Part shown: piece by piece, positions 1 through 62,745 of the stretch
Position numbering within the stretch: the first letter of the stretch is position 1
Layout: every line of letters begins with the position of its first letter
DNA from: a virus
Length of the DNA: 64,000 bases
IMG/VR virus record: IMGVR_UViG_3300012582_000194
Span: 186,001 to 250,000 of that record
Strand: one strand, 5' to 3'
Translations under genes and position numbers: made by a program
Notes under the pieces: generated by a model
What the model saw: only the letters and a program-made list of their open reading frames with translations
What the model was told of the DNA's origin: nothing
Databases searched by the model: none

Positions 1-273
1 ATATTCTTTTACAATATAAGGCTCTTCACCTTCATCAGTTATTTCTTCATCTCTTTCTGTAATAACTAAGTCTTTGATTAATTTAATGAAATAATTTTTG
101 AAGGATTCTTTCTCATTATCTTCAACAACAACTTCTTCTGTTTTAGGCACATCTTTAGAATTGATGTTTTGTAATTCAGATATAACTTGTTTTATTGCAA
201 GTTTAGCAGTTTCTAAATCACCATCTTCAATTCTTTTAATAGATATATTTAATATTTTAGTTAGATGTTTCAT
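1..273 (-). CDS. Partial acidic hypothetical protein (C-terminus beyond left edge)
   Basis: Open from ATG at 273 down to base 1 without a stop; 91 residues visible. The start MKHLTKILNISIKR is basic and amphipathic, followed by an acidic glutamate-rich stretch (residues about 45-90). The start overlaps the end of the 257-568 gene by 17 bases, the usual coupling here. Family not recognised. Confidence 0.7.
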   Translation of the reverse strand, partial: MKHLTKILNISIKRIEDGDLETAKLAIKQVISELQNINSKDVPKTEEVVVEDNEKESFKNYFIKLIKDLVITERDEEITDEGEEPYIVKEY

Positions 274-568
274 TGTTTATATTATTTATTTTATTTTTTC
301 TATTTTCAATAATAGAATTTCTTGTGAAGATTTCTGCATTATCATTAATTATTGCCCAACCAAAACCATTAGTATCTTGTATAGCTAAATGAGGTAAGTA
401 TTGCTTATTTCTATTTTGGTGAGATACACTTTTTATAGTTAATGTATATGGGTATTCAACTTTATCAACACCATATGTTCCACCATCAAGATGTGAATAT
501 ACGTATGGTTCTTTTAGTATAGTTACTCTATCACCTGGTTTTAAGTCTATAAAACTTAAATAGCTCAT
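257..568 (-). CDS. SH3-like tagged small protein, YPYTxTI family
   Basis: 103 residues. GDRVTI near the N-terminus, then YPYTLTI and a DTNGFGWAI motif, read as a small beta-barrel. Clear paralogues lie at 53865-54134 and 54142-54426 (YPYxFTI, NGYGWSI). Near the C-terminus is ENRKNKINNIN, a member of the window-wide C-terminal tag, followed by five extra residues. Function unknown. Confidence 0.8.
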   Translation of the reverse strand: MSYLSFIDLKPGDRVTILKEPYVYSHLDGGTYGVDKVEYPYTLTIKSVSHQNRNKQYLPHLAIQDTNGFGWAIINDNAEIFTRNSIIENRKNKINNINNETSN

Positions 569-569
569 A

Positions 570-980
570 TTATTTAATTAAGTTGAGTGCTTCATATAAT
601 GCTTTTTCTAATGCTTCTTCATAGCTATTAAAGCCAATTTCATTTTCTCTATTAATAAAAGCGAAGAACATTTTAGGATTAATAAAATAATGAAAATATG
701 CTTTTGAATTTTCATCCATGCTATCTTCCGCAAACGGTATAATTACTATTTGAATATCATGGACATCTCTTAGATATGCTTGTAGTACTGATTGTACAGG
801 TGCTAAATATCTAAAATCTATTCTATAATCTTCTTCTTGTATTTCACCATTTTTATACGTACCATTTTCTTCGTCTTCATAATATCCAGGTACATAATCC
901 GTAGAAGGCTTACCATTTGGTTTAAAACCTTTTTCTTTAGCTAATTTAGCTGTTTGAAATGATGTTAATTTTTCACTCAT
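570..980 (-). CDS. Hypothetical protein, 'LAKEKGF/LQAYLRD' family
   Basis: 136 residues from MSEKLTSF, preferred over an ATG 36 bases upstream that would overlap the next gene more deeply. The pattern LAKEKGF, then VLQAYLRDVHDIQIVI, then EEALEKALYEALNLI is shared with 5225-5590 and 26765-27091, so three paralogues exist here. Similar proteins are common as hypotheticals in Bacteroidetes phages and prophages (recollection). Function unknown. Confidence 0.8.
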   Translation of the reverse strand: MSEKLTSFQTAKLAKEKGFKPNGKPSTDYVPGYYEDEENGTYKNGEIQEEDYRIDFRYLAPVQSVLQAYLRDVHDIQIVIIPFAEDSMDENSKAYFHYFINPKMFFAFINRENEIGFNSYEEALEKALYEALNLIK

Positions 981-982
981 AA

Positions 983-1339
983 TTACATTAAATAGTCTAA
1001 CAATTTGTATACACATCTTTCGTTTGCAATGATTCTCAAATCATGAATGTCTAAGATGGTAATATTATATTCTTTGGAGAGTCTTTCTTTTAGAAGAACT
1101 GTATTAGTATAGACTAATGTTTTATAGCCTCTAAGCTTACAGAAGTTAATACCACGAAGAATATTATAATGAGTCATTCTAGGTTGATTCCATGACTTAA
1201 TTTGTTCTTCTTGTCGTATTCTATAACCTGCTTTAGTTAAAGCTTCTATAATTAAAGGAATAGCATCACCTTTATGATAATAGTCTAAATGTGTTTTCAT
1301 AATTAATCCAACTTTTGAAATTAAATGTGGTGTAATCAT
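983..1339 (-). CDS. Hypothetical protein
   Basis: 118 residues from the first ATG; an internal ATG at 1300 (MKTHLDYYHKGD) is an equally good start. Mixed alpha/beta pattern with KTLVYTNTVLLKERL. No recognised domain. It ends 3 bases before the start of the 570-980 gene, so it is in the same operon. Confidence 0.7.
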   Translation of the reverse strand: MITPHLISKVGLIMKTHLDYYHKGDAIPLIIEALTKAGYRIRQEEQIKSWNQPRMTHYNILRGINFCKLRGYKTLVYTNTVLLKERLSKEYNITILDIHDLRIIANERCVYKLLDYLM

Positions 1340-1342
1340 AGT

Positions 1343-1591
1343 TTACTTATTAAGTTTTCTATATTCACAAAATTTACAATTTCCTTTATGGGTAAAAGTT
1401 GTATGAGATGATCCTGGGTCAGATAGTAAATATTCACAGCTATCATAGTCAATGACTTTAGTATCCTTGATAAAATCATTGACTATTTTTTGTTTACGTT
1501 CAATTTTTTCTTTTTCAATATCTCTTTCGACATCCTGTCCACAGGAAATTAAAGTTGTGATGATTCCTATTATTAATAGTAGTTTTTTCAT
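1343..1591 (-). CDS. Small lipoprotein
   Basis: About 82 residues from MKKLLLIIGII. A hydrophobic signal ends in the lipobox LISC followed by GQDVERD. Acidic residues after the cysteine resemble Bacteroidetes lipoprotein export signals, so it is probably outer-membrane or surface anchored. An ATG at 1618 would add nine polar residues and is less likely for a signal peptide. Function unknown. Confidence 0.75.
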   Translation of the reverse strand: MKKLLLIIGIITTLISCGQDVERDIEKEKIERKQKIVNDFIKDTKVIDYDSCEYLLSDPGSSHTTFTHKGNCKFCEYRKLNK

Positions 1592-1604
1592 AATGCTATT
1601 TGAT

Positions 1605-1817: not shown

Positions 1818-1843
1818 ATTTTAGTTATAGTTTATCTAATATA

Positions 1844-1875: not shown

Positions 1876-1885
1876 TTATTTTAAA

Positions 1886-8042: not shown

Positions 8043-8073
8043 ATCATTAAGTTAGACTACTTAAAGATGGTCC
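8043..8073. repeat. Direct repeat copy 1 with hairpin
   Basis: About 30 bases shared with 9742-9772. It contains TTAAG TTAGACTA CTTAA, a hairpin just after (and overlapping) the stop of the 52-residue membrane protein gene; conserved 3' element. Confidence 0.7.
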
Positions 8074-8219
8074 TTTTCTTTTTTGTTATTTTTAATTAAT
8101 ACGTTAACTGAACCATATAATGTTCGATTCGATATAACAAAGAAGTCTTTGTCTACAGGTAAGAACAATAATGTAATAGTACCTATTAAAATGAATGTGA
8201 GATATATAATCAGAACCAT
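8061..8219 (-). CDS. 52-residue membrane protein, copy 1
   Basis: One strongly hydrophobic N-terminal helix (MVLIIYLTFILIGTITLLFL) and a basic tail ending KKEKDHL. The start at 8219 is set by the promoter (-7 box 5 bases upstream) and by identical length to its paralogue at 9760-9918, which ends KKERDHL. Probably an inner-membrane peptide with cytoplasmic C-terminus; function unknown. Confidence 0.75.
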   Translation of the reverse strand: MVLIIYLTFILIGTITLLFLPVDKDFFVISNRTLYGSVNVLIKNNKKEKDHL

Positions 8220-8224
8220 TGATA

Positions 8225-8256
8225 CAAAGTTAAACAGAATCATTTAATTATCCAAA
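8225..8256 (-). promoter_or_regulatory. Promoter for a leaderless mRNA
   Basis: TTTG (8253-8256), 20 bases, TAACTTTG (8225-8232), five bases, ATG at 8219. Confidence 0.75.
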
Positions 8257-9741: not shown

Positions 9742-9772
9742 TCATTTAAGTTAGACTACTTAAAGATGGTCC
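9742..9772. repeat. Direct repeat copy 2 with hairpin
   Basis: Second copy of the 8043-8073 element, again overlapping the stop of the 52-residue membrane protein gene. Confidence 0.7.
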
Positions 9773-9918
9773 CTCTCTTTCTTATCAATCCGAGCAATAG
9801 GCATTTGATAAGTAGCGATACAATACATGTTAACACCTATGAAGGTGTTCCTCTTTGTCTTAATGCTCAACATTACTACGAGCATTAAAGTTAGAAAGAT
9901 TAGATACAGTAGAATCAT
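9760..9918 (-). CDS. 52-residue membrane protein, copy 2
   Basis: N-terminal hydrophobic helix MILLYLIFLTLMLVVMLSI, C-terminus KKERDHL. Same length, same promoter spacing and same 3' hairpin as 8061-8219, although the middle has diverged. Confidence 0.75.
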   Translation of the reverse strand: MILLYLIFLTLMLVVMLSIKTKRNTFIGVNMYCIATYQMPIARIDKKERDHL

Positions 9919-11606: not shown

Positions 11607-11709
11607 TATTTTGGTATTTTTATTTTATTAACAAGTTATCCACATATCTCCTTTCCAAATTAGTTACTCTATTTTAAAACTTTTGGTAATAGAGAATCTA
11701 TAATTGGAT

Positions 11710-11967
11710 ATGGCTAATAAAAAATTTGAAATAGTAGGAGGTAATTTGGAAATATCTGATGATATTATATATGATAATGGATTTAGTATAGGTATATCAT
11801 ATACTAAATCTCAATTTAATATGATGGAAGATAAGTATAAAGGTGGTGTAATTTCATTAGAACAAGCTAAAGAGTTAGCCGACCATATTTATGAAAAGTT
11901 ATCTAAAACTGATAAATATAAAGGTGAAATAAGAAAATATAAGATTGAATCTTTAAACAAAGAATAA
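11710..11967 (+). CDS. Tagged small protein
   Basis: 85 residues from the ATG at 11710 (a TTG two codons upstream is less likely). First gene of the 10-kb plus-strand block. The C-terminus EIRKYKIESLNKE is a class A tail. The body (residues 1-65) is not recognised. Confidence 0.75.
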   Translation: MANKKFEIVGGNLEISDDIIYDNGFSIGISYTKSQFNMMEDKYKGGVISLEQAKELADHIYEKLSKTDKYKGEIRKYKIESLNKE

Positions 11968-12364: not shown

Positions 12365-12537
12365 TGAGTAGAGTAAAATATGTAGCTAATAAAATGATGG
12401 CAATAGTCCTTGGTGGCTGTGCGGGCGCAATGTTTAGTAACTTATTTACTAAACATACACCATCAATGGTTATATGTACTATAGTGGGAATGCTATTATA
12501 CTACTTCGTAATAAGTAAAGAAAAAGTAAATGGATAG
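12364..12537 (+). CDS. Two-TM small membrane protein, copy 1
   Basis: 57 residues; ATG overlaps the preceding stop (TAATG). Two hydrophobic segments with small residues (AIVLGGCAGAMF) and end YYFVISKEKVN. Paralogue of 13220-13414 (ends YYLLLMKENN). It overlaps the next gene by 8 bases. Confidence 0.65.
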   Translation: MSRVKYVANKMMAIVLGGCAGAMFSNLFTKHTPSMVICTIVGMLLYYFVISKEKVNG

Positions 12538-12799
12538 TTTTTCTAAATATAAAGATTGTACATATTTAATATGTCGTACTACATTTAAAACTGATGTGTA
12601 TGGATATGATGATGGATTAACTTATACATTTGAGAAAGGAGTTAAATATAAATGTATAGTTGGGAATAGTGGTAACTATATTATTTTTAAACCTATGGAT
12701 GTATTGTTTAATACACTTGATAATAATACTGTTAATCAAATTACAGAAAACTTTTTTACTATAAATGAATATAGAAAATTTAAAATAGAGAATTTATGA
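12530..12799 (+). CDS. Tagged protein of the YLICxxT family
   Basis: 89 residues. CTYLICRTTFKTDVYG, FEKGVKYKCIVG and the tail ENFFTINEYRKFKIENL. Closest relative 12966-13223; more distant relatives run to 16782. The tail combines class B (FxTIxEYRK) with the class A ending (KIENL). Predicted small beta domain followed by a C-terminal helix; function unknown. Confidence 0.8.
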   Translation: MDSFSKYKDCTYLICRTTFKTDVYGYDDGLTYTFEKGVKYKCIVGNSGNYIIFKPMDVLFNTLDNNTVNQITENFFTINEYRKFKIENL

Positions 12800-12966
12800 A
12801 AAAATTTAAAGAATATCTAATGATATTGATAATTATTTCAACAATATTTGGATTATTTGGTATTGTATTTGGTGGTGGTAGTTTTCTGTTCGGATTTATT
12901 TTTGGGTTATTTTTATTTAATGCTTTATATCTATTGGATTATTTAATAAAAACAATATTTAAATAA
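12796..12966 (+). CDS. Small membrane protein
   Basis: 56 residues, two glycine/phenylalanine-rich TM segments (LIIISTIFGLFGIVF; FIFGLFLFNALYLL). Its ATG overlaps the preceding TGA and its stop overlaps the next ATG, so it is translationally coupled. Confidence 0.65.
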   Translation: MKKFKEYLMILIIISTIFGLFGIVFGGGSFLFGFIFGLFLFNALYLLDYLIKTIFK

Positions 12967-13223
12967 TGAACAAGTTTTCTAAATATGTCGGTTGTAAATA
13001 TTTAATCTGTCATACAACATTCACTACGAATGTATATGGTGGTACTCCAATTACATTTGAGAAAGGAGTTAAACATCTATGTGTAATAGGAGAAAGTGAG
13101 AATATTATTTTTGTATCTTTAGATATAATATTTGATAACACTGATGATAATGATGTTAAGCTTATTTATGAAAACTTCCATACACCAGTTGAGCACAGAA
13201 AATTTAAAATAGAGAACTTATGA
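12966..13223 (+). CDS. Tagged protein of the YLICxxT family
   Basis: 85 residues, near-duplicate of 12530-12799 (CKYLICHTTFTTNVYG, FEKGVKHLCVIG, VEHRKFKIENL). Tandem duplication with an inserted membrane-protein gene. Confidence 0.8.
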   Translation: MNKFSKYVGCKYLICHTTFTTNVYGGTPITFEKGVKHLCVIGESENIIFVSLDIIFDNTDDNDVKLIYENFHTPVEHRKFKIENL

Positions 13224-13414
13224 AGAATATATTGAAAGAATTTATGATTTCCTATAATATGAAGTCTACTAAAATAGCAAGAGCGGTAGTAATGGGTGGT
13301 ATTGTTGGTGCTTTAGTTGGTAGCTTAATATCTGAAACAGTTATACCAATGGCTATAGGTAGTCTATTAGGAATGGTAGGATATTATTTATTATTGATGA
13401 AAGAGAATAATTAA
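13220..13414 (+). CDS. Two-TM small membrane protein, copy 2
   Basis: 64 residues (an internal Met15 start is possible). GGIVGALVGSLI and IGSLLGMVGYYLLLM segments; paralogue of 12364-12537. Confidence 0.65.
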   Translation: MKNILKEFMISYNMKSTKIARAVVMGGIVGALVGSLISETVIPMAIGSLLGMVGYYLLLMKENN

Positions 13415-13441
13415 AATTGATGTTAATAAATTATTAATATT

Positions 13442-13744
13442 GTGAATAAAAAACAACAAAAAGAAGAATATTATAAAATATATGGCGGTAAAAATATCAA
13501 CCCTAATCCTTTTCCTATTGGTAGTAAATTAAGACATCGTAATGGAACTGAAGAGGTTGAATTAATATCTTATAAAAATGAATTAATGATACTTATACCA
13601 TTAAATGAAGCTGCTTTATATCATTATGATACAATGAATCCTGATATAATTGAATTTTCAAAAAAGAAAGGGTATAAGCCTAATATGGATAATACTACGC
13701 AATTACATTATATGTATGCTGATAGATATATTATAATAAATTAA
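13442..13744 (+). CDS. Hypothetical protein
   Basis: 100 residues, apparently GTG start. Contains NPNPFPIGSKLRHRNGTEEVELISYKN-like strand segments suggesting a small barrel, but no tag at the end (YADRYIIIN). Unrecognised. Confidence 0.6.
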   Translation: MNKKQQKEEYYKIYGGKNINPNPFPIGSKLRHRNGTEEVELISYKNELMILIPLNEAALYHYDTMNPDIIEFSKKKGYKPNMDNTTQLHYMYADRYIIIN

Positions 13745-13746
13745 TA

Positions 13747-14031
13747 ATGAATAAGTTTTCGGAATATAAGAATTGTAAACATTTAATTTGTTGTGAAACA
13801 TTTGATACTGAAGCTAATGGTGTCGGGTTAGTGCCTAATATAAAGTTTACATTTGAAAAAGGTGCTAAGTATAGTTGTGAATATGTGAAATATAACAATG
13901 ATTATTTCATAAAATTTCCAACTCAAGATATAGCTTTTTATGGTGGTGATAATAATGATGTTAAACTTATTTATGAAAACTTTATGACTCTAAATGAACA
14001 CAGAAAAACTATTATAAATGAATTATTATGA
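13747..14031 (+). CDS. Tagged protein of the LICxxT family
   Basis: 94 residues: KHLICCETFDTEAN, FEKGAKYSCEYV, tail ENFMTLNEHRKTIINELL (class B). The stop TGA overlaps the next ATG (TTATGA). Confidence 0.8.
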   Translation: MNKFSEYKNCKHLICCETFDTEANGVGLVPNIKFTFEKGAKYSCEYVKYNNDYFIKFPTQDIAFYGGDNNDVKLIYENFMTLNEHRKTIINELL

Positions 14032-14297
14032 ATGTAGATGATTTGAAAAATTTAAATTATTTGATATGTGTAAAAACGCATATGTATAAAGAAGAACTTG
14101 AATATTTACAAGGTATAAAATATAAATGTAAATTTGAAGAAGGAAAAAATTATAATTGTATCTATATTGAATATCCTGATGGTAGTGGATGGCGTAAGAT
14201 GTTATTAAGTGATAATGATATTGTTATCGAATATTGTAGAAACCATTTTATGACAAAATCAGAATATAGAAAGTATATAATAAATGAACTATTATGA
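14028..14297 (+). CDS. Tagged protein of the LICxKTH family
   Basis: 89 residues: NYLICVKTHMYKEELEYLQGIKYKC, tail NHFMTKSEYRKYIINELL. Coupled to both neighbours by 4-base overlaps. Confidence 0.8.
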   Translation: MNVDDLKNLNYLICVKTHMYKEELEYLQGIKYKCKFEEGKNYNCIYIEYPDGSGWRKMLLSDNDIVIEYCRNHFMTKSEYRKYIINELL

Positions 14298-14521
14298 AGA
14301 AAGAATATATATTACTTTGTAAAAAATCTAATGGAAATTTTATAAAAGGTAGAAAGTATAATAGTACGTTTGATGGTTATAATCTTTATATTGAATTATC
14401 TGAAGGTAAACAAACATTAATATCAATGTCGAGATATAACGACGAAAATCTTAAATATATTGAAGAACATTTTACAACAGTTAATACACATAGAAAAAAT
14501 ATTATAGATTCAATTGAATAA
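14294..14521 (+). CDS. Tagged protein of the LICxKTH family (short)
   Basis: 75 residues; YILLCKKSNGNFIKGRKYN, tail EHFTTVNTHRKNIIDSIE. The most reduced member of the family. Confidence 0.75.
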   Translation: MKKEYILLCKKSNGNFIKGRKYNSTFDGYNLYIELSEGKQTLISMSRYNDENLKYIEEHFTTVNTHRKNIIDSIE

Positions 14522-14826
14522 TGAAACCTATTAAACATAACGATATTCCTAATGCAACTACAGACTTAGATATGTTTCTTACTTATTTAAATAAGAATAA
14601 GATAGCATATTCTAAGTATGATATTGTTAGTAATATAGGTGATATTATTTGCGTGGTATGGGAAAATAAAAAAGAAGACTATTATGTAGATATATTTGCT
14701 GGTGAAAATTACTATGATATATTTACTAATGGGAAAAGAATAGAAACTACATTCCCTAATGCAGGATGCTATAGTATGGATATAGACTCAGTAACAGAAT
14801 TATTATTAAGCTTAGATTATTTATGA
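14521..14826 (+). CDS. Hypothetical protein, no tag
   Basis: 101 residues, acidic, alpha/beta; DLDMFLTYLNKNKIAYSKYD at the N-terminal side. Ends SVTELLLSLDYL, not a tag. A rare untagged gene within the tagged array. Confidence 0.7.
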   Translation: MKPIKHNDIPNATTDLDMFLTYLNKNKIAYSKYDIVSNIGDIICVVWENKKEDYYVDIFAGENYYDIFTNGKRIETTFPNAGCYSMDIDSVTELLLSLDYL

Positions 14827-15086
14827 AATTTGATAGATTTAAAAACGTAAATACTTTAATATGTATAAAAACACATAGTAAATTTTCTATGCATGGTAAA
14901 TTAGAATACTTAGCTGGTAGAAAGTATAAATGTGCATTAAGTACAGTTAATGATGTAATTAATATTTTTAATGATAATGGCCATTGTAGTATAGCAACTT
15001 ATAATGAAAATTCTATTAACTACTTTAGAGAACATTTTATAACAATAGCAGAATATAGAAAGTCTATTATAGAAGAATTATTATGA
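14823..15086 (+). CDS. Tagged protein of the LICxKTH family
   Basis: 87 residues: NTLICIKTHSKFSMHGKLEYLAGRKYKC, tail EHFITIAEYRKSIIEELL. Very close to 15666-15944 (SMHGELKYL). Confidence 0.8.
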   Translation: MKFDRFKNVNTLICIKTHSKFSMHGKLEYLAGRKYKCALSTVNDVINIFNDNGHCSIATYNENSINYFREHFITIAEYRKSIIEELL

Positions 15087-15370
15087 TTGAAATCATAGGT
15101 GAACATAGTAATGTGTATATAAATGAATTCAGGATTTCTATATGGATTGAAGAACCCATAAAACATTCAGGTACGATATCATTATATAGGGAGGCTAAAA
15201 TAGAGTACTTCTACAATGGTAAAAAGAAACATGAAGTATTACACACATATAATGATGACCATGTTCTGATTTATTTAAGTATATTAGCTAATTATTTAAA
15301 AGGAATAGCTGAATACTATGTACCAAGTATCCACGATTTGAGGAAAGGTAAAATAGATGAATTATTATGA
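15083..15370 (+). CDS. Tagged hypothetical protein, different body
   Basis: 95 residues. The body (EIIGEHSNVYINEFRISIWIEE) is unlike its neighbours, yet the end is HDLRKGKIDELL, the same tail; supports a modular tail. Confidence 0.75.
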   Translation: MIEIIGEHSNVYINEFRISIWIEEPIKHSGTISLYREAKIEYFYNGKKKHEVLHTYNDDHVLIYLSILANYLKGIAEYYVPSIHDLRKGKIDELL

Positions 15371-15944: not shown

Positions 15945-15946
15945 TT

Positions 15947-16480: not shown

Positions 16481-16527
16481 TATGATAGAAATATTTACGA
16501 ATTGAGAAAAAAGTTTATAAACGATTT

Positions 16528-31499: not shown

Positions 31500-31616
31500 A
31501 ATGTTCTACTTTTAGATTTAATCCATATTATATAACAAATGTATTTCCATAATTATTTTAAAACTTTCGTCTTTAGTTTTACTATAATTAGTATATGGGT
31601 AAAATTGCGAATTAAT

Positions 31617-47594: not shown

Positions 47595-47987
47595 TTAGTA
47601 TAATTTTTCTATTCGAGATTTTCTATCTAACACTTCAACTGATAATAAATAAGAAAAAGTAATAAGTGATGGTTTACCATCACTTATATCAGGTGAAGTG
47701 AATTTGAAATATGATCTATTCGTAAGCTCTTCTATATATCCATTATATTCATTAATTACTGTTGAATTTCTTCTGTTTTGTGTTTTTATTTTAATTAATG
47801 TATTAGACGTAATATTTCTTAATAAGGTATAAGCTTCTATTCGAAATGCAACATCTTCTTTATAAAGTTTATTATTCTCGGCTATTAATTCTAAATTTTC
47901 TGTTTGACCATCCAAATATTCAGCGTATAGCATCATAGTTATACACTCTTTTCTGATTCTTATATTTTTGTTTAATTCAACTTTCAT
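47595..47987 (-). CDS. Tagged hypothetical protein
   Basis: 130 residues; N-terminus resembles the frameshifted gene at 47340; C-terminus VLDRKSRIEKLY (class A). Middle unrecognised. Confidence 0.75.
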   Translation of the reverse strand: MKVELNKNIRIRKECITMMLYAEYLDGQTENLELIAENNKLYKEDVAFRIEAYTLLRNITSNTLIKIKTQNRRNSTVINEYNGYIEELTNRSYFKFTSPDISDGKPSLITFSYLLSVEVLDRKSRIEKLY

Positions 47988-50323: not shown

Positions 50324-50533
50324 TTATAATATTTTTAATTCATCAACTTCGAATATATCACTACCTATAAAATTTCCCTTTATAGTAACCATTTTTCCTT
50401 CTAATTTATGTAATGGTTCGTCGTTCTTTCTCAATTTCATTTTCAACCAACCCAATACTATGAAAGCTTCTTCCTGTTCATTTTTAGAACCTTTGTCGAA
50501 TATATCAACGACTACTTTTCCACTAATTTCCAT
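50324..50533 (-). CDS. Hypothetical protein
   Basis: 69 residues, beta-rich (EISGKVVVDIFDKG, KMVTIKGNFIGSDIFEVDEL), OB-like strand pattern. Unrecognised. Confidence 0.6.
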   Translation of the reverse strand: MEISGKVVVDIFDKGSKNEQEEAFIVLGWLKMKLRKNDEPLHKLEGKMVTIKGNFIGSDIFEVDELKIL

Positions 50534-50999
50534 ATATTTTATCTATTCTTGATTTTCTATCTTGTTTAATTTCTTTTTCTCTTATTGGCATGTGCCAATC
50601 TAATTTTCTATCATTATCAAGAAATATAGTAATATAATACTTTAATTCATTATGGAATTCTATTTCTCTTATTACTGCTTTCACGTCTATTGAATTATTT
50701 ATTTTTGTTGTTATCACATCACCAACTTTAAACTTAGAGTTATCAATTATATATTGATTTCTCTGATTTTTTTCTATTTGTTTTAATTTTTTGCTATACG
50801 GAATATCTAATAATACTAATGGTCCAGTAAGAATAAATATTAAATTCCACCCTCCTACAATATTAGTTTTATTTAAATATTTAGAAAAATATGTTTTGTG
50901 TTCTTTTATTTCAATAATACTTTTCATACCAATAATTATCCACAAACAAAAACCCGTTGTAGAAATAATTATCAATAAAGCTTCCATTGTAGCATCCAT
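50523..50999 (-). CDS. Membrane SH3-like tagged protein
   Basis: 158 residues: two TM segments, then KFKVGDVITTKINNSIDV barrel and tail KQDRKSRIDKIYGN. Same plan as 55698-56135 and 61859-62320: barrel and tail displayed from the membrane. Confidence 0.8.
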   Translation of the reverse strand: MDATMEALLIIISTTGFCLWIIIGMKSIIEIKEHKTYFSKYLNKTNIVGGWNLIFILTGPLVLLDIPYSKKLKQIEKNQRNQYIIDNSKFKVGDVITTKINNSIDVKAVIREIEFHNELKYYITIFLDNDRKLDWHMPIREKEIKQDRKSRIDKIYGN

Positions 51000-51919: not shown

Positions 51920-52252
51920 TTATGATATAGAATTTTCTATAATTTTAGTTCTATATTCTTTGAGTGATAAGGAAGTTTTACTATTGAATTTTATAGTAAC
52001 TCTATTTCCATTAATAGAAATTTCATCAACATCATAATGATATACCCAAGCATCAGATGAACGATTTTCCATGTATAATTCTTTACTATCTCTTATTCTA
52101 TTCCATATTTTAATATCAATAATATCAAATTTGGCACAACCATTTTTTGAAAAATATGTTGTATTATCTTTAAATTTAACTTTACCAAAAGAAAAAGTAA
52201 ATTCTAAAGCTGCTTCCCATACTATGTTCTTATATTCTTTAATACTTATCAT
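51920..52252 (-). CDS. Class B-like tagged protein
   Basis: 110 residues from MISIKEYKNIVWEAAL. End LSLKEYRTKIIENSIS. The body differs from the LICxKTH and KKFIGL families. Start chosen after the stop of 52270-52905. Confidence 0.7.
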   Translation of the reverse strand: MISIKEYKNIVWEAALEFTFSFGKVKFKDNTTYFSKNGCAKFDIIDIKIWNRIRDSKELYMENRSSDAWVYHYDVDEISINGNRVTIKFNSKTSLSLKEYRTKIIENSIS

Positions 52253-52269
52253 AATTGTAATTTTAACAT

Positions 52270-52905
52270 CTATAGCCAAGTACCGTACCTTCTACCATTT
52301 CTTTCACTCCTTTCAGGCATATCAATTTCACGCACCTTACTTTTAAATATATTTAAATAATAGTCATTTAATCCTTTCTTAAAAATTCTTGATAGTTTTA
52401 ATGATTCTTCGCTTGTTAAATCTATTGTAAATTCTTTATATTTTAAATAACATCTAACATTTTCTACAGTAGTATAATACAACTGTGGATAAAATTCTCT
52501 ATGAATATCATCAGCAAAATAATAATAATCATTATTTTGAATATATTTACTAATGGTATTACTACCACATAATCTATTAAACCAATCCTTTAAATATCTC
52601 TCAGGTGTTTCTGGTTCAGGTTGTGTTGGTAATATAGGCGTTAATATATTTTCTGTATTGATAGCTTCTTCAATTTCATCCAAATCATCATCATTTAAAA
52701 AAGTAAAATCTTCTTCTACGGTTGGATCAAAATCTGTGAAATCGTCATAAATATCACCATCATTATCAATAACTTCTGATGTAAAATTACTACCATTTAT
52801 ATGCGAATCAACCTTCGGTGTAACTAATCTACCCTCCATATACAAATCTGATTTTGGAATAGGCGGGATGGTATGTTTTTTTACTAAATTAATTAATTTT
52901 CTCAT
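52270..52905 (-). CDS. Acidic two-domain protein, tandem duplicate 1
   Basis: 211 residues: acidic N-terminal half (DDFTDFDPTVEEDFTFLND), linker LTPILPTQPEPETPE, C-terminal domain (YLKDWFNRLCG, FKKGLNDYYLNIFKSKV). C-terminal domain shared with 52902-53348. Confidence 0.7.
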   Translation of the reverse strand: MRKLINLVKKHTIPPIPKSDLYMEGRLVTPKVDSHINGSNFTSEVIDNDGDIYDDFTDFDPTVEEDFTFLNDDDLDEIEEAINTENILTPILPTQPEPETPERYLKDWFNRLCGSNTISKYIQNNDYYYFADDIHREFYPQLYYTTVENVRCYLKYKEFTIDLTSEESLKLSRIFKKGLNDYYLNIFKSKVREIDMPERSERNGRRYGTWL

Positions 52906-53418: not shown

Positions 53419-53450
53419 TTTGTTTTTTTCTTCAGTTATGCGTATATTTG
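53419..53450 (+). promoter_or_regulatory. Bacteroidetes-type promoter
   Basis: TTTG (53419-53422), 20 bases, TATATTTG (53443-53450), six bases, ATG 53457. Confidence 0.85.
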
Positions 53451-53456
53451 TCATAT

Positions 53457-53726
53457 ATGAAGAGAAAATACAGAATCAAACACATCATAAAAAAAGGTAA
53501 TACATGCTATATTCCACAAATTAGGAAGTTTTTTATGTGGTTTGATATACAAGCAGAAGGAATGTTTGGTATGTATGACGTTTATTTTAATAACCAAGAA
53601 GATGCTAAAGATTGGATTAAAAAAGACATCGAACATCGAAAAAAGATGGCAGATAATAGAACAATTGAGTGTATTCCATTTCATACAAGAACAGAAAGAA
53701 TTCAAAATCTAATTGATAAAAAATGA
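53457..53726 (+). CDS. Tagged hypothetical protein
   Basis: 89 residues from MKRKYRIKH, the first ATG after the promoter. Aromatic middle (FMWFDIQAEGMFGMYDVYF), tail FHTRTERIQNLIDKK (class A variant). Confidence 0.75.
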   Translation: MKRKYRIKHIIKKGNTCYIPQIRKFFMWFDIQAEGMFGMYDVYFNNQEDAKDWIKKDIEHRKKMADNRTIECIPFHTRTERIQNLIDKK

Positions 53727-54141: not shown

Positions 54142-54426
54142 ATGGAATACAACGATTTTAAAAAATTAAATGTAGGTGATAATATCACAATTAAAGAAAA
54201 TCCAATTTCTTGGACATCCCACAATTATGGTAGATGTGGAACTGATAGAGTAAAGTATCCGTATACATTTACCATCGTTAAATTTGCATATTTGAAAGGA
54301 TTTTTTAATCATATTTCTATTATATGTCAAAACGGTTATGGTTGGTCAATTGAAGTGTCTAATTATGAAAAATTTGAAATTAATAAAAAAAGCAGAAGAA
54401 GTAGAATCGAAAATTTGAATATATGA
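54142..54426 (+). CDS. SH3-like tagged protein, YPYxFTI family
   Basis: 94 residues: LNVGDNITIKENPISW, VKYPYTFTIVKF, QNGYGWSI, tail SRRSRIENLNI. Confidence 0.8.
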   Translation: MEYNDFKKLNVGDNITIKENPISWTSHNYGRCGTDRVKYPYTFTIVKFAYLKGFFNHISIICQNGYGWSIEVSNYEKFEINKKSRRSRIENLNI

Positions 54427-54665
54427 AAATTGAAATTGGTGATGTAATGATTTGTTTACCAGGATTTACTAATAACATTAGTAACTCTAACTATGGTGGT
54501 GCTGGGTATACAGAAAATAAAATATTTACCGTAGGGAGCATTACAGGTAACGGTAGAGTTATATGGGCTAATGATGAAAGTGGTAAAGGTGTTTACAGTT
54601 ATACATTAAAACATTATACTAATAGAAAATCAAGAATTGAAAAATTACACAATGAAAATTTATAA
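54423..54665 (+). CDS. SH3-like tagged protein
   Basis: 80 residues: IEIGDVMICLPGF, FTVGSITGNGRVIWAND, tail TNRKSRIEKLHNENL. Confidence 0.8.
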   Translation: MKIEIGDVMICLPGFTNNISNSNYGGAGYTENKIFTVGSITGNGRVIWANDESGKGVYSYTLKHYTNRKSRIEKLHNENL

Positions 54666-54685: not shown

Positions 54686-55114
54686 TTATATTATATGATA
54701 TTCTAAATAATTATGTTTCTCTATATACTCTTGTGGTGATTTATATTTTTCGGGGAAACCTTTCGACCTATCCCAACTTGGTTTTAGCATATCTATTGCA
54801 TACATAGCCCTAGCAATTGTTGGCTCATATGTAGAACCTAAACCAAAACCAGTTCCCCATTTAGATGATGGTTTATGTACAGATGCGAATCTGAACTCAC
54901 CATAACGATCATAATCAACTTTACCAATTTTATTATCCTTAGTAAATAAAAACCATGTCGATGGTTCTTCTGGTACTATAATATCAAATCCATTTGATTT
55001 TAGCAGTTTTGCATATTGATTTAATGCTTCGGATGTAGAGTAAATTTCATCTTCCTCTTCTTCTTCCTCATCCCAATCTTCCGAGAAATCTTCAAACAAT
55101 TTTAAGTATTTCAT
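54686..55114 (-). CDS. N-tagged acidic protein
   Basis: 142 residues. MKYLKLFEDFSEDWDEEEE, near-identical to the start of 39156-39545, then an alpha/beta domain (ALNQYAKLLKSNGFDIIVP, GFGLGSTYEPTIARAMYAI). Divergent from the 2H gene. Confidence 0.75.
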   Translation of the reverse strand: MKYLKLFEDFSEDWDEEEEEEDEIYSTSEALNQYAKLLKSNGFDIIVPEEPSTWFLFTKDNKIGKVDYDRYGEFRFASVHKPSSKWGTGFGLGSTYEPTIARAMYAIDMLKPSWDRSKGFPEKYKSPQEYIEKHNYLEYHII

Positions 55115-55697: not shown

Positions 55698-56135
55698 TTA
55701 ATTATAAAGATTATCAATTCTCGATTTTCTATCAAGTTTTACACATCTTTCATCAAATTCTATACGCTCTAATCCTTCCAATAAATAAACAATACTAAAA
55801 TTTTTAACTTTAATTTTAACTATTTTACCTTTTATATTATGATTGTATAATATGGCTATTACTCTATCATCAATTTTAAATTTGACGTTTCTCAGTAATC
55901 GTTTCTTGTGCTTTATGTTTATTATTGATGTAATTAAAATATCTATTGAAATTAATGGACCACTCAACATAAGTAATATATTATATTTACTAAATAAATC
56001 ATTTGTATCAAAATATTTAGATACTAAATACGTATTACTACAGTCATATAACATGTTAGTTAAAATAACACCTATCACAAACCAAAGCACACCTATTATA
56101 ATAAAAATTATTGCTGTCGTTACTATTGTTTCCAT
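55698..56135 (-). CDS. Membrane SH3-like tagged protein
   Basis: 145 residues from METIVTTAIIF. Two TM segments, FKIDDRVIAILYN barrel, tail KLDRKSRIDNLYN. Paralogue of 50523-50999. Confidence 0.8.
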   Translation of the reverse strand: METIVTTAIIFIIIGVLWFVIGVILTNMLYDCSNTYLVSKYFDTNDLFSKYNILLMLSGPLISIDILITSIINIKHKKRLLRNVKFKIDDRVIAILYNHNIKGKIVKIKVKNFSIVYLLEGLERIEFDERCVKLDRKSRIDNLYN

Positions 56136-56139
56136 TAAA

Positions 56140-56457
56140 TTAAAAATTATCAACTAATGTTATTTCTATTTTTAGTGCATCTTCTACTATACTTTTAATC
56201 CAATGATAACCAAATAGCGATTCTTTTGTTCCACATTTTTCTATAGCTTCTTTATGTGTTATAATATTAGAATTAACTGATTTATTTAGAATCATATTTC
56301 TAAACATATAAAAATCAACAATATCTAACATATATTGTTTACTTTTTAAATAATCTTTAATTTCTTCATCTTGTTTAATGAAATTTAACATTTCATAATT
56401 TACTCTACCCCCTGATAAGAAGTATTTCCATTTAGAACTTTTTGTTAATGATTGCAT
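56140..56457 (-). CDS. Hypothetical protein
   Basis: 105 residues, helical, SSKWKYFLSGGRVNYEML. Unrecognised. Confidence 0.65.
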   Translation of the reverse strand: MQSLTKSSKWKYFLSGGRVNYEMLNFIKQDEEIKDYLKSKQYMLDIVDFYMFRNMILNKSVNSNIITHKEAIEKCGTKESLFGYHWIKSIVEDALKIEITLVDNF

Positions 56458-57350: not shown

Positions 57351-57509
57351 ATGAAGAAATTTACTGACTACCAATTAGTTATAGAAAAAAAGGAAATAGA
57401 AAGAAAGAAATATTTAGAAGTAATTCACTTACCCGAATTATCAATAACAAAAGAATCACTTAATGAATACCTTAAACTATACAATCTAAAATTAGAAGAA
57501 TTAAAATGA
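57351..57509 (+). CDS. Small helical protein, possible N-tag variant
   Basis: 52 residues: MKKFTDYQLVIEKKE resembles a relaxed packaging-type N-terminus; then a helix. Stop overlaps the next ATG (ATGA). Confidence 0.6.
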   Translation: MKKFTDYQLVIEKKEIERKKYLEVIHLPELSITKESLNEYLKLYNLKLEELK

Positions 57510-57724
57510 AATATTTAAAAACATTTGAGAATTACTATCACGATGTTCTGAATTATTATATCAAGAAGTCTGAAGTAGAAAAAGAGAAAGATGGTGGAGA
57601 TGATAATGATGAAAATCTACCCGATGACTTACTCGATGATGATGAAATAGAAGTTAATGATGTAACTAAACCTTTAAAATATGATGTTAATAATTCTATA
57701 AACATCTTTAACAATTTAATGTAA
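57506..57724 (+). CDS. N-tagged acidic protein
   Basis: 72 residues: MKYLKTFENYYHDVLNYYI tag plus an acidic stretch (DDNDENLPDDLLDDDEIEV). Followed by a terminator. Confidence 0.7.
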   Translation: MKYLKTFENYYHDVLNYYIKKSEVEKEKDGGDDNDENLPDDLLDDDEIEVNDVTKPLKYDVNNSINIFNNLM

Positions 57725-57757: not shown

Positions 57758-59884
57758 TTATTTAACTATTGTCATAGATATACTATCAGGAACAAAATCA
57801 TACTTAGAAAACGTCATATTAGGGACTGCTCTTCCAGATGTTAGAGTTCTTAATGATGTAATATAACCAAACAACATTGATAGTGGAACTGATGCAGTAA
57901 TAAGCTGAGTATTTCCTTTATTGTCAATATTCGTAATAGAACCTCTTCTCTTATTCAAATCACCAGATACAGACCCAATAAAATCATCAGGTGTAGTTAC
58001 AACTACTTCCATGATAGGTTCTAATAATTTTGGTTTAGCTTGTTTAGAAGCTACTTTAAATCCTTCTTTTGCTGCTAATTCAAATGACAATGCATCAGAA
58101 TCCACATCATGATAAGAACCATGTATAAGTCTAATTTTCATAGATTCTACAGGATAGCCACCTAAAGGACCATTTTTCATAGCTTCTTCAAATCCTTTTT
58201 GAATAGGTGTGATAAATTCTTTTGGAATTACTCCACCAACTATTTCATTAACGAATTCCAAACCTAATTTTCCATCTTCACGTGGACCAATTTCAAACAC
58301 AATATCAGCAAATTTACCTCTACCACCAGTTTGTTTACTGAATACTTCTCTATGTTGAAACTTATTAGTTAAGGTTTCTTTGTACGCAACTAAAGGCGCA
58401 CCTTGTTTTACCTCAACACCATGATCACGTTTCAATGTTTCAAGTCTAACTTCTAAGTGAAGCTCACCCATACCCCTTATTATAGTTTGACCAGTTTCTT
58501 TATCAGTATTTACTCTAAGAGATGGATCCTCTTCAACTAATTTAGAAAGAGCAATTCCCAATTTATCAGAATCCGCTTGACTTTTTGCTTCAATCGCATA
58601 ACCTATCACAGGCTCAGGAAAAGACATAGACTCTAAAACAACTTTGTTATCAATAACAAGTGTATCACCAGTTCTAATATTCTTTATACCGATAAACGCA
58701 ACTATATCACCTGCTTCTGCACTTTCAATTTGAATTTGCTTATTCGAGTGCATTTGTACAATTCTTGATACTCTTTCTTTAGTACCTGTTCTCATATTAA
58801 TAATATAAGAACCTGCATTAATATGACCAGAATAACATCTAACATAACACAACTTACCATATTGGTCAGTTGTTATCTTAAAAGCAAGTCCAGTAAATGG
58901 TCTACCAATCGCTGGAGTAATCTCAACTTCTTCATCAGTATCAGTATTTATACCCTTTGTGATCCTATCTTTAGGTGAAGGAAGATATGCACATACAGCA
59001 TCTATTACAGACTGAACACCTTTATTTTTAAAGGCAGAACCGCAAAGAACTGGAAATATTTTCATTTCAACAGTAGCCTTTCTGATAACAGATTTCACTT
59101 CTTCTTCACTAATTTCTTGATTATCCAAATATTTTAGCATAAGTTCATCATCATATTCAGATAGAGTTTCTAATAAAGATTTTCTGTATTCATTTACAGT
59201 TTCTACTATATCTGTCGGAATTTCAATTTCTCTATAAGTTTTACCTTCATCTTCAGTATTCCATAGAATACCTTTCATTGCAATTAAATCAACTACCCCG
59301 ATAAAACCATCTTCTGAACCAATTGGTATTTGTAATGGTATTGCATTCGCACCGAGTTTTTCTCTTATAGTTTTAACAGCCTTAAAGAAGTTAGCACCCG
59401 CTCTATCCATTTTATTAACAAAACATACTCTTGGAACACCATAACGATCAGCTTGTCTCCAAACAGTCTCAGACTGTGGTTCTACACCCGATACAGCGCA
59501 AAATAGAGCAACTGCACCATCCAATACTCTAAGTGAACGTTCTACCTCAACTGTAAAGTCAACATGTCCTGGTGTGTCTATAATGTTAATATTATAGGAT
59601 TCACTATTTGGTATAAGTTCACCTTGTGTTGTTGGATAGTTCCAAAATACTGTAGTTGCAGCAGAAGTAATCGTAATACCTCTTTCTTTTTCTAAATCCA
59701 TATGGTCCATTGTAGCACCCGCACCATCTCTATCATGTACTTCACCAATTTTGTGTGTTTTACCCGTATAATATAAAATACGCTCTGTTGTTGTAGTTTT
59801 ACCAGCATCGATATGGGCCATAATTCCAACATTTCTAAGTAGTCCGAGTTCCTTACCTTTCCTACCTGTATCCGAATCTTTCAT
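57758..59884 (-). CDS. fusA: Translation elongation factor G (full length)
   Basis: 708 residues, the normal EF-G length, all five domains. G1 AHIDAGKT (23-30), G2 RGITI (68-72), G3 DTPGHVDF (103-110), G4 NKMD (157-160), G5 region CGSAFKNKG; domain [21 protein letters not shown]; domain [10 protein letters not shown] and FGYITSLRT. Catalyses GTP-driven translocation and, with RRF, ribosome recycling. Odd: switch-I region reads [20 protein letters not shown] instead of the usual HDGAATMDWMxxExERG. The WNYPTTQG insertion after domain G2 resembles Bacteroidetes EF-G (recollection), suggesting capture from a host. Confidence 0.97.
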
Positions 59885-60743: not shown

Positions 60744-60744
60744 A

Positions 60745-61266
60745 TTATTCAACCCCATATTTACCGTAGCAATATACTTTATATTTAGAAATATTTGACT
60801 TAAGGCTATTTAAAATACTTTCAAAATTATCAAAAGTTATTCTATTATCAAAGAAACCAATTGTCTCTAAAAACTTATCATTTTCTTCCATATCATCATC
60901 TGAATTTTCATCTGAATAAACATCTTCATTAATGTAGAATACTAAATTAACTTTAAGCTTTTTTAAAGCATGAAAAATATTAACTTCTAAAACAGTATCA
61001 AATGCTCTACCGTCAAATTCTTTTGTAATTATGAAATATATCATAGTAGAATTATTACTATCTTTTACATAAACATGCTCATTGTTAAATTCTGGAATAG
61101 CTTTAAAAACCATAGATTTTATATACTTAGTATAATTTGCTACTTCTGGTTCAGGTTTTCCAAACATAAATCTGCTAAATTTCTTTGTTTTAGCCATATC
61201 CTTTATTTCCGAATCGGGCAACTTTGCCATATCAGAATAATCATAATATTCTTTTATATACTTCAT
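60745..61266 (-). CDS. N-tagged hypothetical protein
   Basis: 173 residues. MKYIKEYYDYSDM is a variant N-terminal tag; then a basic segment and an alpha/beta domain (VYVKDSNNSTMIYFIITKEF) with an acidic insert (SDENSDDDMEEND). Upstream ATATATACAAT is shared with 38863. Confidence 0.7.
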   Translation of the reverse strand: MKYIKEYYDYSDMAKLPDSEIKDMAKTKKFSRFMFGKPEPEVANYTKYIKSMVFKAIPEFNNEHVYVKDSNNSTMIYFIITKEFDGRAFDTVLEVNIFHALKKLKVNLVFYINEDVYSDENSDDDMEENDKFLETIGFFDNRITFDNFESILNSLKSNISKYKVYCYGKYGVE

Positions 61267-61377
61267 ATTGTATATATTTAAAACATTTCTCTTTTTTAAT
61301 ACATCTCAACATGTTGATTATAAACAGTTTATTTAAAATTATTAGATTTTAAAACTTTTCAATTTCTAATCAATATA
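61267..61377. other. 111-bp AT-rich divergent intergenic region
   Basis: Holds the ATATATACAAT element next to 61266; no canonical -33/-7 promoter seen. Confidence 0.4.
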
Positions 61378-61590
61378 ATGTCTATGGAAAAGGTATTAAT
61401 TATTTCTTCAATCATATTGACAGTTCTATCAATTGGTTGATTTGGTGTATACACAATCAAAACATCCGTCGGAAAATTATTGATGTGTCAAGACAACAGA
61501 GAATTTTCCGATATAATGGGAAATGAGCTTATATCAGAAATACAAAAAGATTCTGTGAAAGTATTTAAAATAGATAAAAAACAAGAATAA
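61378..61590 (+). pseudogene. Small TM gene with an in-frame TGA
   Basis: MSMEKVLIISSILTVLSIG, then TGA (61438-61440), then FGVYTIKTSVGKLL and a charged helix to 61590 in the same frame. Replacing TGA by TGG (Trp) gives a normal 70-residue membrane protein. TGA is a true stop elsewhere here, so nonsense mutation, readthrough or sequencing error. Confidence 0.55.
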
Positions 61591-61611
61591 AAACTTTAAA
61601 ATTAAATTAAT

Positions 61612-61827
61612 ATGTCAATAGTAAGAAGTAGGGAAGATGAATTAGATAGATTGGAGAAAGCACATAGCGCATTATCCGATATAGCTTTTAGTAGCGCATA
61701 TAGCTCTCACCACGATACTTTAGTCAATGATATTATAAATTTTGACGAATTTACAGAAGTTTATGATAAAATTGCTAAATGGAGTATTGAATTTAGAAAG
61801 AGAGTAGATGATATTGAATATCAATAA
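61612..61827 (+). CDS. Helical hypothetical protein
   Basis: 71 residues: SREDELDRLEKAHSALSDIAF and IAKWSIEFRKRVDDIEYQ. Unrecognised. Confidence 0.65.
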   Translation: MSIVRSREDELDRLEKAHSALSDIAFSSAYSSHHDTLVNDIINFDEFTEVYDKIAKWSIEFRKRVDDIEYQ

Positions 61828-61858
61828 CATTTTTTTTCAATTTAACGTTATATAAATT

Positions 61859-62320
61859 ATGTTAATATTCACCATATTACTTTCAATAATAGCAAATATT
61901 GGTATTGGCGCAATATCATGTGGGTTAGCTTCTATAACTATGAATATGTTTAATGAAGATTATGAAAACTATTTAGCCAGATTAAATTTTTTACAGACTA
62001 TAATACTTTTCTCATTTGGCGTATTAGCCATTTTCACAATACCTTATGCTATAATAAAAAGTGATAAAAATATTATCAAGAGAACAAGATTTAAACTTGG
62101 TGAAAATGTAAAAATAAAAAAGAATGAGATAGAAAAACATTATTCTAAAGAAAGTGCAATTCATAGAGAAAATTGGGTTTATAAAGTAAATTCAATGTCT
62201 GTACGTAATGGTAGATTAGTATATACTATTGCACATGATGGTGGTATGATAATTCGCTTGTATTCATCGGATGTCGAAAAAGTTTTAAGTAGAAAAGAAA
62301 GAATAAAAAATTTATGTTAA
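61859..62320 (+). CDS. Membrane SH3-like tagged protein
   Basis: 153 residues: two TM segments (1-27, 42-65), FKLGENVKIKKNEIEKHY barrel, tail VLSRKERIKNLC. Third member with 50523 and 55698. Confidence 0.8.
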   Translation: MLIFTILLSIIANIGIGAISCGLASITMNMFNEDYENYLARLNFLQTIILFSFGVLAIFTIPYAIIKSDKNIIKRTRFKLGENVKIKKNEIEKHYSKESAIHRENWVYKVNSMSVRNGRLVYTIAHDGGMIIRLYSSDVEKVLSRKERIKNLC

Positions 62321-62745
62321 TTTTAATCATAGCAATTTTTTTAATATTTGGACTGGGTACATGGTATGCAGTTCATACAGATGAAACTTATGATAAAATT
62401 AATGGAGTAATTAAATATAAATACACCAATGTTATTACGGATTTAAAACCAGGTGATGATTTTTCTTGTCGCATAGATGGTGATAGATGTGTAGGCAAAA
62501 TACAGATTATATCAAATCGTGTTTATTTATGTCAAGATGTTAGCTATGGTGTAGCACCTGCGTGGCATTCACATCGTGATAAAATGGGATATGCTTATAG
62601 TTGGTTTGCTGGATATATTTATTTAACTAAAGGAATTAATACAAGAGTATTACAAGAATTTTTACAGTCCATTGAAAAGTACAGTATTACCGACTTTAAG
62701 TTGAGGGATAATAGTAGGAAAGAAAGAATAAAAAGGTTGTATTAA
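62314..62745 (+). CDS. Membrane-anchored tagged protein
   Basis: 143 residues: N-terminal TM (LILIIAIFLIFGLGTW), LKPGDDFSCRIDGDRCVG barrel-like part, WHSHRDKMGYAYSWFAGYIY, tail NSRKERIKRLY. Overlaps 61859-62320 by 7 bases. Confidence 0.8.
   Translation: MLILIIAIFLIFGLGTWYAVHTDETYDKINGVIKYKYTNVITDLKPGDDFSCRIDGDRCVGKIQIISNRVYLCQDVSYGVAPAWHSHRDKMGYAYSWFAGYIYLTKGINTRVLQEFLQSIEKYSITDFKLRDNSRKERIKRLY

Follow-up and report, generated by a model that had tools for sequence, protein, structure and literature searches.

What is the role of a short peptide that recurs at the C-termini of many small, otherwise dissimilar proteins of a huge phage? This question is raised by a 64,000-nucleotide stretch of viral DNA (IMG/VR record IMGVR_UViG_3300012582_000194, positions 186,001 to 250,000; hereinafter the window) that corresponds to bases 8008-72007 of LR756504.1, the 636,363-bp genome of an uncultured huge phage. 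The match was established with a 24-kb piece, which shows 100% identity to LR756504.1 18007-42007; the window is also contained in a 267,884-base virus record. An earlier note on this DNA described some 40 unrelated proteins that share a C-terminal tail and interpreted the tail as a sorting, docking or degradation signal. The results presented here support the part of this interpretation that posits a selected, modular peptide, with degradation and docking as candidate functions.

PMC7162821 reports four complete huge-phage genomes, of 634, 636, 642 and 735 kb, and places genomes of more than 634 kb in the Mahaphage clade, with predicted replication in Bacteroidetes; the Bacteroidetes host assumed in the earlier note is backed only by this statement on comparably large genomes. 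The terminase of LR756504.1 shows 42% identity to those of the huge phages LR756502.1 and LR745206.1, and the terminases of T4-like phages are more distant.

A C-terminal peptide in huge phage proteins

Two forms of the tail were defined, a strict motif, R[KRE]xxIxx[LIC], and a loose one, RxxxIxx[LIMVC], and were sought in the last 16 residues of the 175 genes obtained by an independent gene call of the window. The strict motif ends 34 of these genes and the loose motif 40, compared with 0.2 and 1.5, respectively, expected from the bodies of the same proteins; 1000 composition shuffles averaged 0.29 and 1.9, with maxima of 3 and 9. One of the 40 loose carriers, the gene at 3458, is probably a chance match.

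Beyond the window, we sampled five further stretches of LR756504.1, four of them picked near model hits and one (L006) from the middle of the genome, which together with the window amount to approximately a third of the genome and 466 genes. Loose carriers number 107 of the 466, and chance would account for a few of them. Outside the window, the first 8.1 kb contributes 19 carriers among 28 genes, the three other stretches near hits 4 of 43, 7 of 50 and 30 of 106, and L006 7 of 64. Searches of the whole record with the class models matched 37 and 30 places, nearly all within 0-90, 374-395 and 550-636 kb. Within this sample, the tag is a short linear C-terminal peptide on about a fifth of the genes.

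The 107 carriers of LR756504.1 yield the consensus [E/D/N]-x-R-K-x-[K/I/R]-I-[E/N/D]-x-L-[L/I]. Between 0 and 8 residues, most commonly one, separate the motif leucine from the stop, so that the motif arginine, counted back from the C-terminus, is residue 8 to 16; 52 of the 107 proteins end one residue past the motif, and the residue that follows it is L in 39, I in 19, N in 17 and Y in 9. The carriers are small, with a median length of 94 amino acids.

The earlier note divided the tails into class A, class B and variants, and we checked 41 of its coordinates (21, 17 and 3, respectively, with the group it gave as the members at 12530-16782 expanded to 11 open reading frames). Class A was borne out almost entirely, with 20 of 21 tails matching the strict motif within the last 18 residues and the remaining one, at 53457, fitting the loose form. 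Class B was upheld for 14 of 17 tails under the strict motif and 15 under the loose one, the tails at 35822 and 51920 being near-matches. Two of the variants, at 19585 and 20071, are loose matches, and the third, at 53865, which ends in HINRVNRIKI, does not fit. The division itself is tempered by the finding that both classes share one core motif. The tagged genes of the window are as follows.

257-568, minus strand: tagged protein, tail ENRKNKINNINNETSN, paralogue of 54142
11704-11967, plus strand: tagged protein, tail EIRKYKIESLNKE
12530-12799, plus strand: LICxKTH-family protein, tail EYRKFKIENL
12966-13223, plus strand: LICxKTH-family protein, tail EHRKFKIENL
13747-14031, plus strand: LICxKTH-family protein, tail EHRKTIINELL
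14028-14297, plus strand: LICxKTH-family protein, tail EYRKYIINELL
14294-14521, plus strand: tagged protein, tail THRKNIIDSIE
14823-15086, plus strand: LICxKTH-family protein, tail EYRKSIIEELL, helix 75-86 in the AlphaFold2 model
15083-15370, plus strand: tagged protein, tail DLRKGKIDELL
15367-15669, plus strand: LICxKTH-family protein, tail EHRKSIIEKLI
15666-15944, plus strand: LICxKTH-family protein, tail EYRKTIIDNIEY
16528-16782, plus strand: LICxKTH-family protein, tail EYRKTIIEKLI
16779-17183, plus strand: tagged protein (loose), tail IKRDLIINEIC, paralogue of 18934
17818-18054, plus strand: predicted membrane protein, tail NNRKRKINNLISD
18056-18268, plus strand: SH3-like-family protein, tail NDRKDRIDNLNL
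18265-18480, plus strand: SH3-like-family protein, tail NNRKSRIENLKLD
18496-18732, plus strand: tagged protein, tail EYRKIKIEDINNDTI
18719-18937, plus strand: SH3-like-family protein, tail DSRKDRIDKLNL
18934-19380, plus strand: tagged protein (loose), tail LKRNTIINELL
19377-19598, plus strand: small beta-rich protein, tail NNRKHRINRLYENK, modelled by AlphaFold2
19585-19833, plus strand: variant tail KNRIRKIKSIINE
19826-20068, plus strand: SH3-like-family protein, tail NSRKDRIESLNLD
20071-20346, plus strand: variant tail KTRIRKIESLTE
31539-31868, plus strand: tagged protein (start at 31617 in the earlier note), tail EHRESIIKDLL
35483-35803, minus strand: tagged protein, tail TKRKKRIDNLYK
35822-36175, minus strand: near-match tail EHRLYIIDNNI
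36168-36425, minus strand: tagged protein, tail EHRETIINKLCND
36422-36694, minus strand: tagged protein, tail EHREAIINELL
37041-37250, minus strand: SH3-like-family protein, tail DYRRYRINKLNLD
40995-41213, minus strand: tagged protein, tail NNRKSKINTLQ
44488-44679, minus strand: tagged protein, tail ETRKERIEKLNL
46810-47094, minus strand: SH3-like-looking protein, tail SERKSKIDNLNNL
47595-47987, minus strand: tagged protein, tail LDRKSRIEKLY
50523-50999, minus strand: predicted protein with two transmembrane segments, tail QDRKSRIDKIYGN, paralogue of 55698
51920-52279, minus strand: near-match tail EYRTKIIENSIS
53448-53726, plus strand: tagged protein (loose; start at 53457 in the earlier note), tail HTRTERIQNLIDKK
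54142-54426, plus strand: tagged protein, tail KSRRSRIENLNI, paralogue of 257
54423-54665, plus strand: tagged protein, tail TNRKSRIEKLHNENL
55698-56153, minus strand: predicted protein with two transmembrane segments, tail LDRKSRIDNLYN, paralogue of 50523
61859-62320, plus strand: predicted protein with two transmembrane segments, tail SRKERIKNLC
62314-62745, plus strand: predicted protein with one transmembrane segment, tail SRKERIKRLY

The eight LICxKTH-family genes at 12530-16782 stand in an array, several with a 4-bp overlap onto the next gene, and their bodies have diverged while the tails are kept. Another array, at LR756504.1 624676-629909 (L005), consists of seven paralogues of 136-145 amino acids, all tagged, with one LICxKTH-family gene among them. 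Two membrane-protein-like open reading frames on the minus strand of the window, at 8061-8243 and 9760-9918, have similar ends of their own, KNNKKEKDHL and RIDKKERDHL.

Selection acts on the peptide

When the DNA form of the motif was sought in the last 60 nucleotides of the 466 genes of LR756504.1, the three frames yielded 67, 4 and 1 occurrences (67 in frame, 5 out of frame), whereas gene bodies showed no frame preference; stretches of seven related phages gave 109 occurrences in frame versus 2 out of frame. Codon use departs little from background at R, K and L, the small shifts being at R and L. The invariant isoleucine favours ATA (0.68 versus a background of 0.44), and this preference holds up after matching for the class of the next residue (p 6.5e-8). 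Given that the motif is in frame and its codons are near background, selection acts mainly on the peptide, as the earlier note had suggested from synonymous codon variation. On the frame and codon tests we reject the tail as a DNA or RNA element, the ATA preference at one isoleucine notwithstanding.

The ATA preference could also be taken to indicate that the tail acts in translation, as a nascent peptide or an overlap element that couples termination to the next start, and tagged genes indeed overlap the next same-strand gene more often than untagged ones (58 of 107 versus 71 of 356). Such a role is very unlikely, considering that the distance from motif to stop varies rather than being fixed, that 14 of the 107 tagged genes precede a gene on the opposite strand, and that the motif is in frame with codons other than ATA near background.

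The tail is unlikely to be the end of one protein family

The simplest account of a common C-terminus is ordinary paralogy, whereby the tail would be the last helix of one widespread family of small domains. Two families do dominate the window, one SH3-like by appearance and the other, LICxKTH, with weak SH3-domain matches only when its model was searched with Foldseek (best E 0.15). Clustering of the bodies tells a different story: the 240 tagged proteins from eight phages fall into 173 body clusters, 139 of them singletons, with 64 clusters for the 107 carriers of LR756504.1 and 24 for the 40 loose carriers of the window. The diversity of bodies asserted in the earlier note is thus confirmed; its phrase "about 40 unrelated" is right in the number of carriers but loose as to unrelatedness, because the 40 carriers form 24 clusters, some of which are paralogous arrays. 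When the class A and class B family profiles were compared with hhalign, only 23 tail columns aligned, with low probability, so that the homology upstream of the tail that a single paralogous family would have was not found either in the clusters or in this comparison. Moreover, one body is tagged in LR745206.1 (L008:18757), whereas its relatives in LR756504.1 (at 6125) and LR756502.1 (L007:11735) lack the tag, and P-loop, BtpA-like and membrane bodies are all found among the carriers. We therefore consider a common domain, which the earlier note had named as the alternative to a modular tag, to be barely credible.

Structural models agree with this conclusion for class A and less so for class B. 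In the AlphaFold2 model of the class A protein at 19377 (8 sequences), residues 1-60 have a predicted local distance difference test (pLDDT) score of 85-93 (ten-residue means), and the tail, with a pLDDT of about 55, is drawn as a low-confidence appended helix. By contrast, in the model of a LICxKTH protein (class B; 16 sequences), the tail is a confident helix, a point that paralogy would accommodate.

Family look-ups with the window carriers returned nothing useful, the best matches being at E 3e-4 for PHROG and E 3e-3 for Pfam, with one member each. A single class A protein used as a query found only a near-identical contig, and for one LICxKTH protein LR756504.1 was the sole match in the phage collection.

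Dialects of the tag in related huge phages

The tag extends across the genome, and other huge phages carry it in a different dialect. At the elongation factor G loci of LR756502.1 and LR745206.1, seven genes in each genome, by one pattern, end in RDxK[IL]xx[IL]. A model built from 14 such tails (A7) gave 44 and 46 hits in this pair of genomes, whereas LR756504.1, LR756501.1 and LR756508.1 returned zero, and a model of 52 LR756504.1 tails (A5) gave 67 hits in its own genome and 4, 2, 1 and 0 in four other huge phages; these counts include the training tails, and the C-terminal position was checked for part of the hits. The RD dialect was likewise seen in five IMG/VR relatives. In an unguided test of C-terminal triplets, the tag pattern came out top or near the top in 7 of 8 phages (for example, R..K...L in G002, RD.K in LR756502.1 and R...I..L in LR756504.1), the exception being G006. 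Most of the relatives' stretches were picked near protein-model hits, so the proportions of tagged genes in them are biased upward. Tenacibaculum phage PTm1 has a match in 1 of 82 genes.

Each dialect model thus finds its own phages and almost none of the other's, which is what would be expected of a tag with a co-evolving reader. For 45 orthologue pairs in which one or both members are tagged, identity with the partner was computed from a tagged side and is 0.86 at R, 0.74 at K, 0.67 at I/L and 0.62 at the last I/L, compared with 0.49 in the body; leaving out six pairs with proteins longer than 260 amino acids, the remaining 39 pairs give 0.97, 0.82, 0.74, 0.61 and 0.43, respectively. The tag is in register in all 28 pairs that are tagged on both sides, although these pairs were selected by the pattern. 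Judging by these alignments, conservation at R, K and I/L of the tag exceeds that of the bodies. Taken together with its modularity, we are confident that the tail is a modular tag that is read in trans.

Carriers of the tag and an N-terminal leader

Which proteins are tagged? A scan of 69 tagged proteins (62 from the seven relatives and 7 from LR756504.1) detected 4 PHROG and 7 Pfam families, compared with 40 and 19 among 66 untagged proteins of 95-250 amino acids from the relatives' stretches (69 drawn, three dropped as carriers of a V-variant tag); the family counts are apparently inflated by one HNH protein, so the contrast is overstated. Within the scanned set, the carriers mostly lack a recognised family. 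Structural labels are absent from the four PHROGs, one of which is a DnaC-like helicase loader; a scan for defence families gave three weak single matches.

The basic and hydrophobic character of the tail, together with this scarcity of recognised families, might suggest a tether, a C-terminal helix that binds the host ribosome, RNA polymerase or nucleic acid, with dialects that follow the host. We regard this as unlikely: the second residue of the RDxK dialects is acidic, and phages that share a host phylum might be expected to address such a target more uniformly.

A second modular peptide, an N-terminal leader (MKxLKxFExF-like), is present on diverse proteins, with 62 examples among 1129 genes of six phages by a pattern of the type MKx[LIVF]xx[FY] that was written after leaders had been seen. 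In the window, the leader proteins are

38863-39153: leader protein
39156-39545: leader protein
54686-55114: leader protein
57506-57724: leader protein
60745-61266: leader protein

and more are found in L003, L005 and L006. Tag and leader never occur together: among the same genes there are none with both, 62 with the leader only, 227 with the tag only and 840 with neither (Fisher p 8e-7). The leader resembles the capsid targeting sequence (CTS) of phage T4, which lies at the N-terminus.

This mutual exclusion is what two addresses would produce, and the tail could then be a docking or sorting tag that binds one phage-made hub and gathers accessory proteins at one site. The hub might be a scaffold, a membrane-proximal or replication assembly, or the capsid core, in which case the tail would be a C-terminal counterpart of the T4 CTS. 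We consider such docking possible, though less than probable, and the same holds for these identities of the hub. The modularity, dialects and conservation of the tag fit any tag read in trans, and PMC3012670 provides a precedent, the T4 internal proteins, a diverse set that share only a conserved targeting peptide. Against docking, no candidate receptor was found, although none was systematically sought; the predicted membrane spans in 10 of the 107 LR756504.1 carriers argue against packaging inside the capsid; and the terminase neighbourhoods of the relatives are almost untagged (6 of 1360 genes at 81 loci).

Clp machinery as a candidate reader

The reading that we rank first, ahead of docking to a hub, is that the tag serves as a degron read by Clp components which the phage itself encodes, although we put it forward only tentatively. 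The window itself encodes a candidate reader:

29580-30737, minus strand: ClpX-like AAA+ unfoldase, candidate tag reader (E 7e-100 to a solved ClpX)

Recognised features of ClpX are a pore loop (GYVG), an IGF-type loop that docks ClpP, and an RKH loop. In the phage protein the Walker motifs are retained, as are a pore loop, in the form GYTG, and a ClpP-docking loop, in the form VGF; KKQ aligns with RKH, and there is no N-terminal zinc-binding domain. LR756504.1 also encodes a 648-residue ClpC-type unfoldase with two AAA domains and no N domain (L120:1186-3132, minus strand), and similar proteins are present in LR756502.1, LR745206.1, LR756508.1 and G002. Three ClpP-like genes were detected in LR756504.1 (L125:1282-2061, L006:11826-12515 and LR756504.1 146269-146691); the match to the last of these contains an in-frame TGA. 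LR756502.1 likewise has three, LR745206.1 has two and the tag-less LR756501.1 has none. Tag and ClpP are found together in LR756504.1, LR756502.1, LR745206.1, G002 and G005, and neither is found in LR756501.1. At 3 of the 6 ClpP loci viewed, the ClpP gene adjoins a tagged gene, one of the three with a V-variant tag. A weak second AAA match in LR756508.1 was judged by eye not to be ClpX-like. No reader other than a phage Clp protease has emerged as a concrete candidate, although other readers were not systematically searched for.

Under this scheme, a phage AAA+ unfoldase, the ClpX-like protein of the window and/or the ClpC-type protein without an N domain, would grip the basic-hydrophobic C-terminal helix and feed the tagged protein into a ClpP of the phage or the host. 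Many accessory proteins, such as those of the host-takeover type, would thereby act briefly and then be cleared, whereas the leader proteins, perhaps virion-bound, would be spared; tag and reader would co-evolve. We counted in favour of degradation the predicted orientation of the membrane-spanning carriers: 16 of the 240 have a predicted span, and by a crude positive-inside rule the tag is on the cytosolic side in 12, outside in 3 and tied in 1.

Several observations weigh against degradation by Clp. The tag does not end in AA as do ssrA-type (LAA) degrons, and, although the basic residues followed by isoleucine recall the RRKKAI end of MuA, the arginine sits at position 8 to 16 counted from the end. 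A transfer-messenger RNA (tmRNA) gene of the phage (L138:1501-1857, minus strand; LR756504.1 280507-280863; Rfam 65 bits) has a frame that ends in an ordinary ...AVAA, so a separate degron probably exists. ClpP fails as a sufficient predictor of the tag, because in sampled stretches of five ClpP-carrying phages from outside the group tag matches are few or absent (Lak-A1 2/139, Lak-C1 1/43, Atu_ph07 0/63, XaC1 0/117 and Bacillus phage G 0/39), and LR756508.1, with a distant ClpP and a ClpC lacking the N domain, has no tag hit. Conversely, the tagged G003, G006 and G007 show no ClpP within their fragments, and among 13 records, several of them fragments, a ClpX-like match was obtained in LR756504.1 only. 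In LR756504.1, predicted membrane spans are rarer in tagged proteins (10 of 107) than in untagged ones of less than 240 amino acids (58 of 318). Finally, the confident helix in the LICxKTH model suggests that there the tail may pack on the body.

The possibility that the tail is added by the phage tmRNA was also considered and rejected, the frame, derived from an alignment of the resume region, giving DNVNSFEQSILNELFAPVEMAVAA with its ssrA-like end. Beside the tmRNA gene lies a transfer RNA gene (L138:2039-2114, minus strand) with a four-base anticodon, tcta, according to ARAGORN.

Comparison with known systems

Terminal signals of several kinds offer parallels. ClpXP reads C-terminal degrons, including the basic RRKKAI of MuA, according to PMC5143411 and PMC8138137, and the tag resembles such degrons in being C-terminal, short and modular and, as to the MuA type, in combining basic and hydrophobic residues; furthermore, tag-bearing phages encode Clp parts. 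The portion of PMC7824862 consulted proposes that the ClpP, ClpX and ClpA of jumbo phages serve attack on host proteins, translocation or virion assembly; the same families are present here, and that portion does not mention a tag on the phage's own proteins. The T4 CTS is, like the tag, a short terminal peptide common to diverse small phage proteins (PMC3012670). The CTS sends proteins to the prohead core; the tag is C-terminal, marks far more proteins, some of them membrane-spanning, and was not found with the CTS-like leader of the same phages (0 versus 62). Encapsulin cargo-loading peptides are C-terminal extensions common to unrelated cargo proteins; the tag is similarly spread but different in sequence.

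Literature searches turned up no paper that describes such a tag, in line with the earlier note, although many subscription papers were outside reach, so that absence from print is unproven. We rate a genome-wide viral tag code as new and its likely mechanisms, degron or docking peptide, as known in kind. Conceivably, each huge phage has a private C-terminal code that spans its proteome: many of its accessory proteins would bear one phage-specific address by which a phage-encoded reader, a Clp unfoldase or another hub, schedules their lifetime or location, with dialects that diverge as tag and reader co-evolve and an N-terminal leader that marks a separate, perhaps virion-bound set; the evidence invites this proposal without making it the probable one. 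Few of the small proteins scanned match a known family, and the tag would sort this dark matter into a functional class, predict which proteins have a fate or partner in common, and offer a direct route to the way in which these phages organise the host cell. Should the tag be a degron, it would be a case in which a virus uses Clp proteins that it encodes to time its accessory proteins.

Other genes

Two further genes were noted in passing. The window encodes a homologue of elongation factor G (57758-59884, minus strand) with about 50% identity to the next best full-length matches, and a nicotinamide phosphoribosyl transferase gene is located at L006:5542-7122 (minus strand; PHROG E 9e-143).

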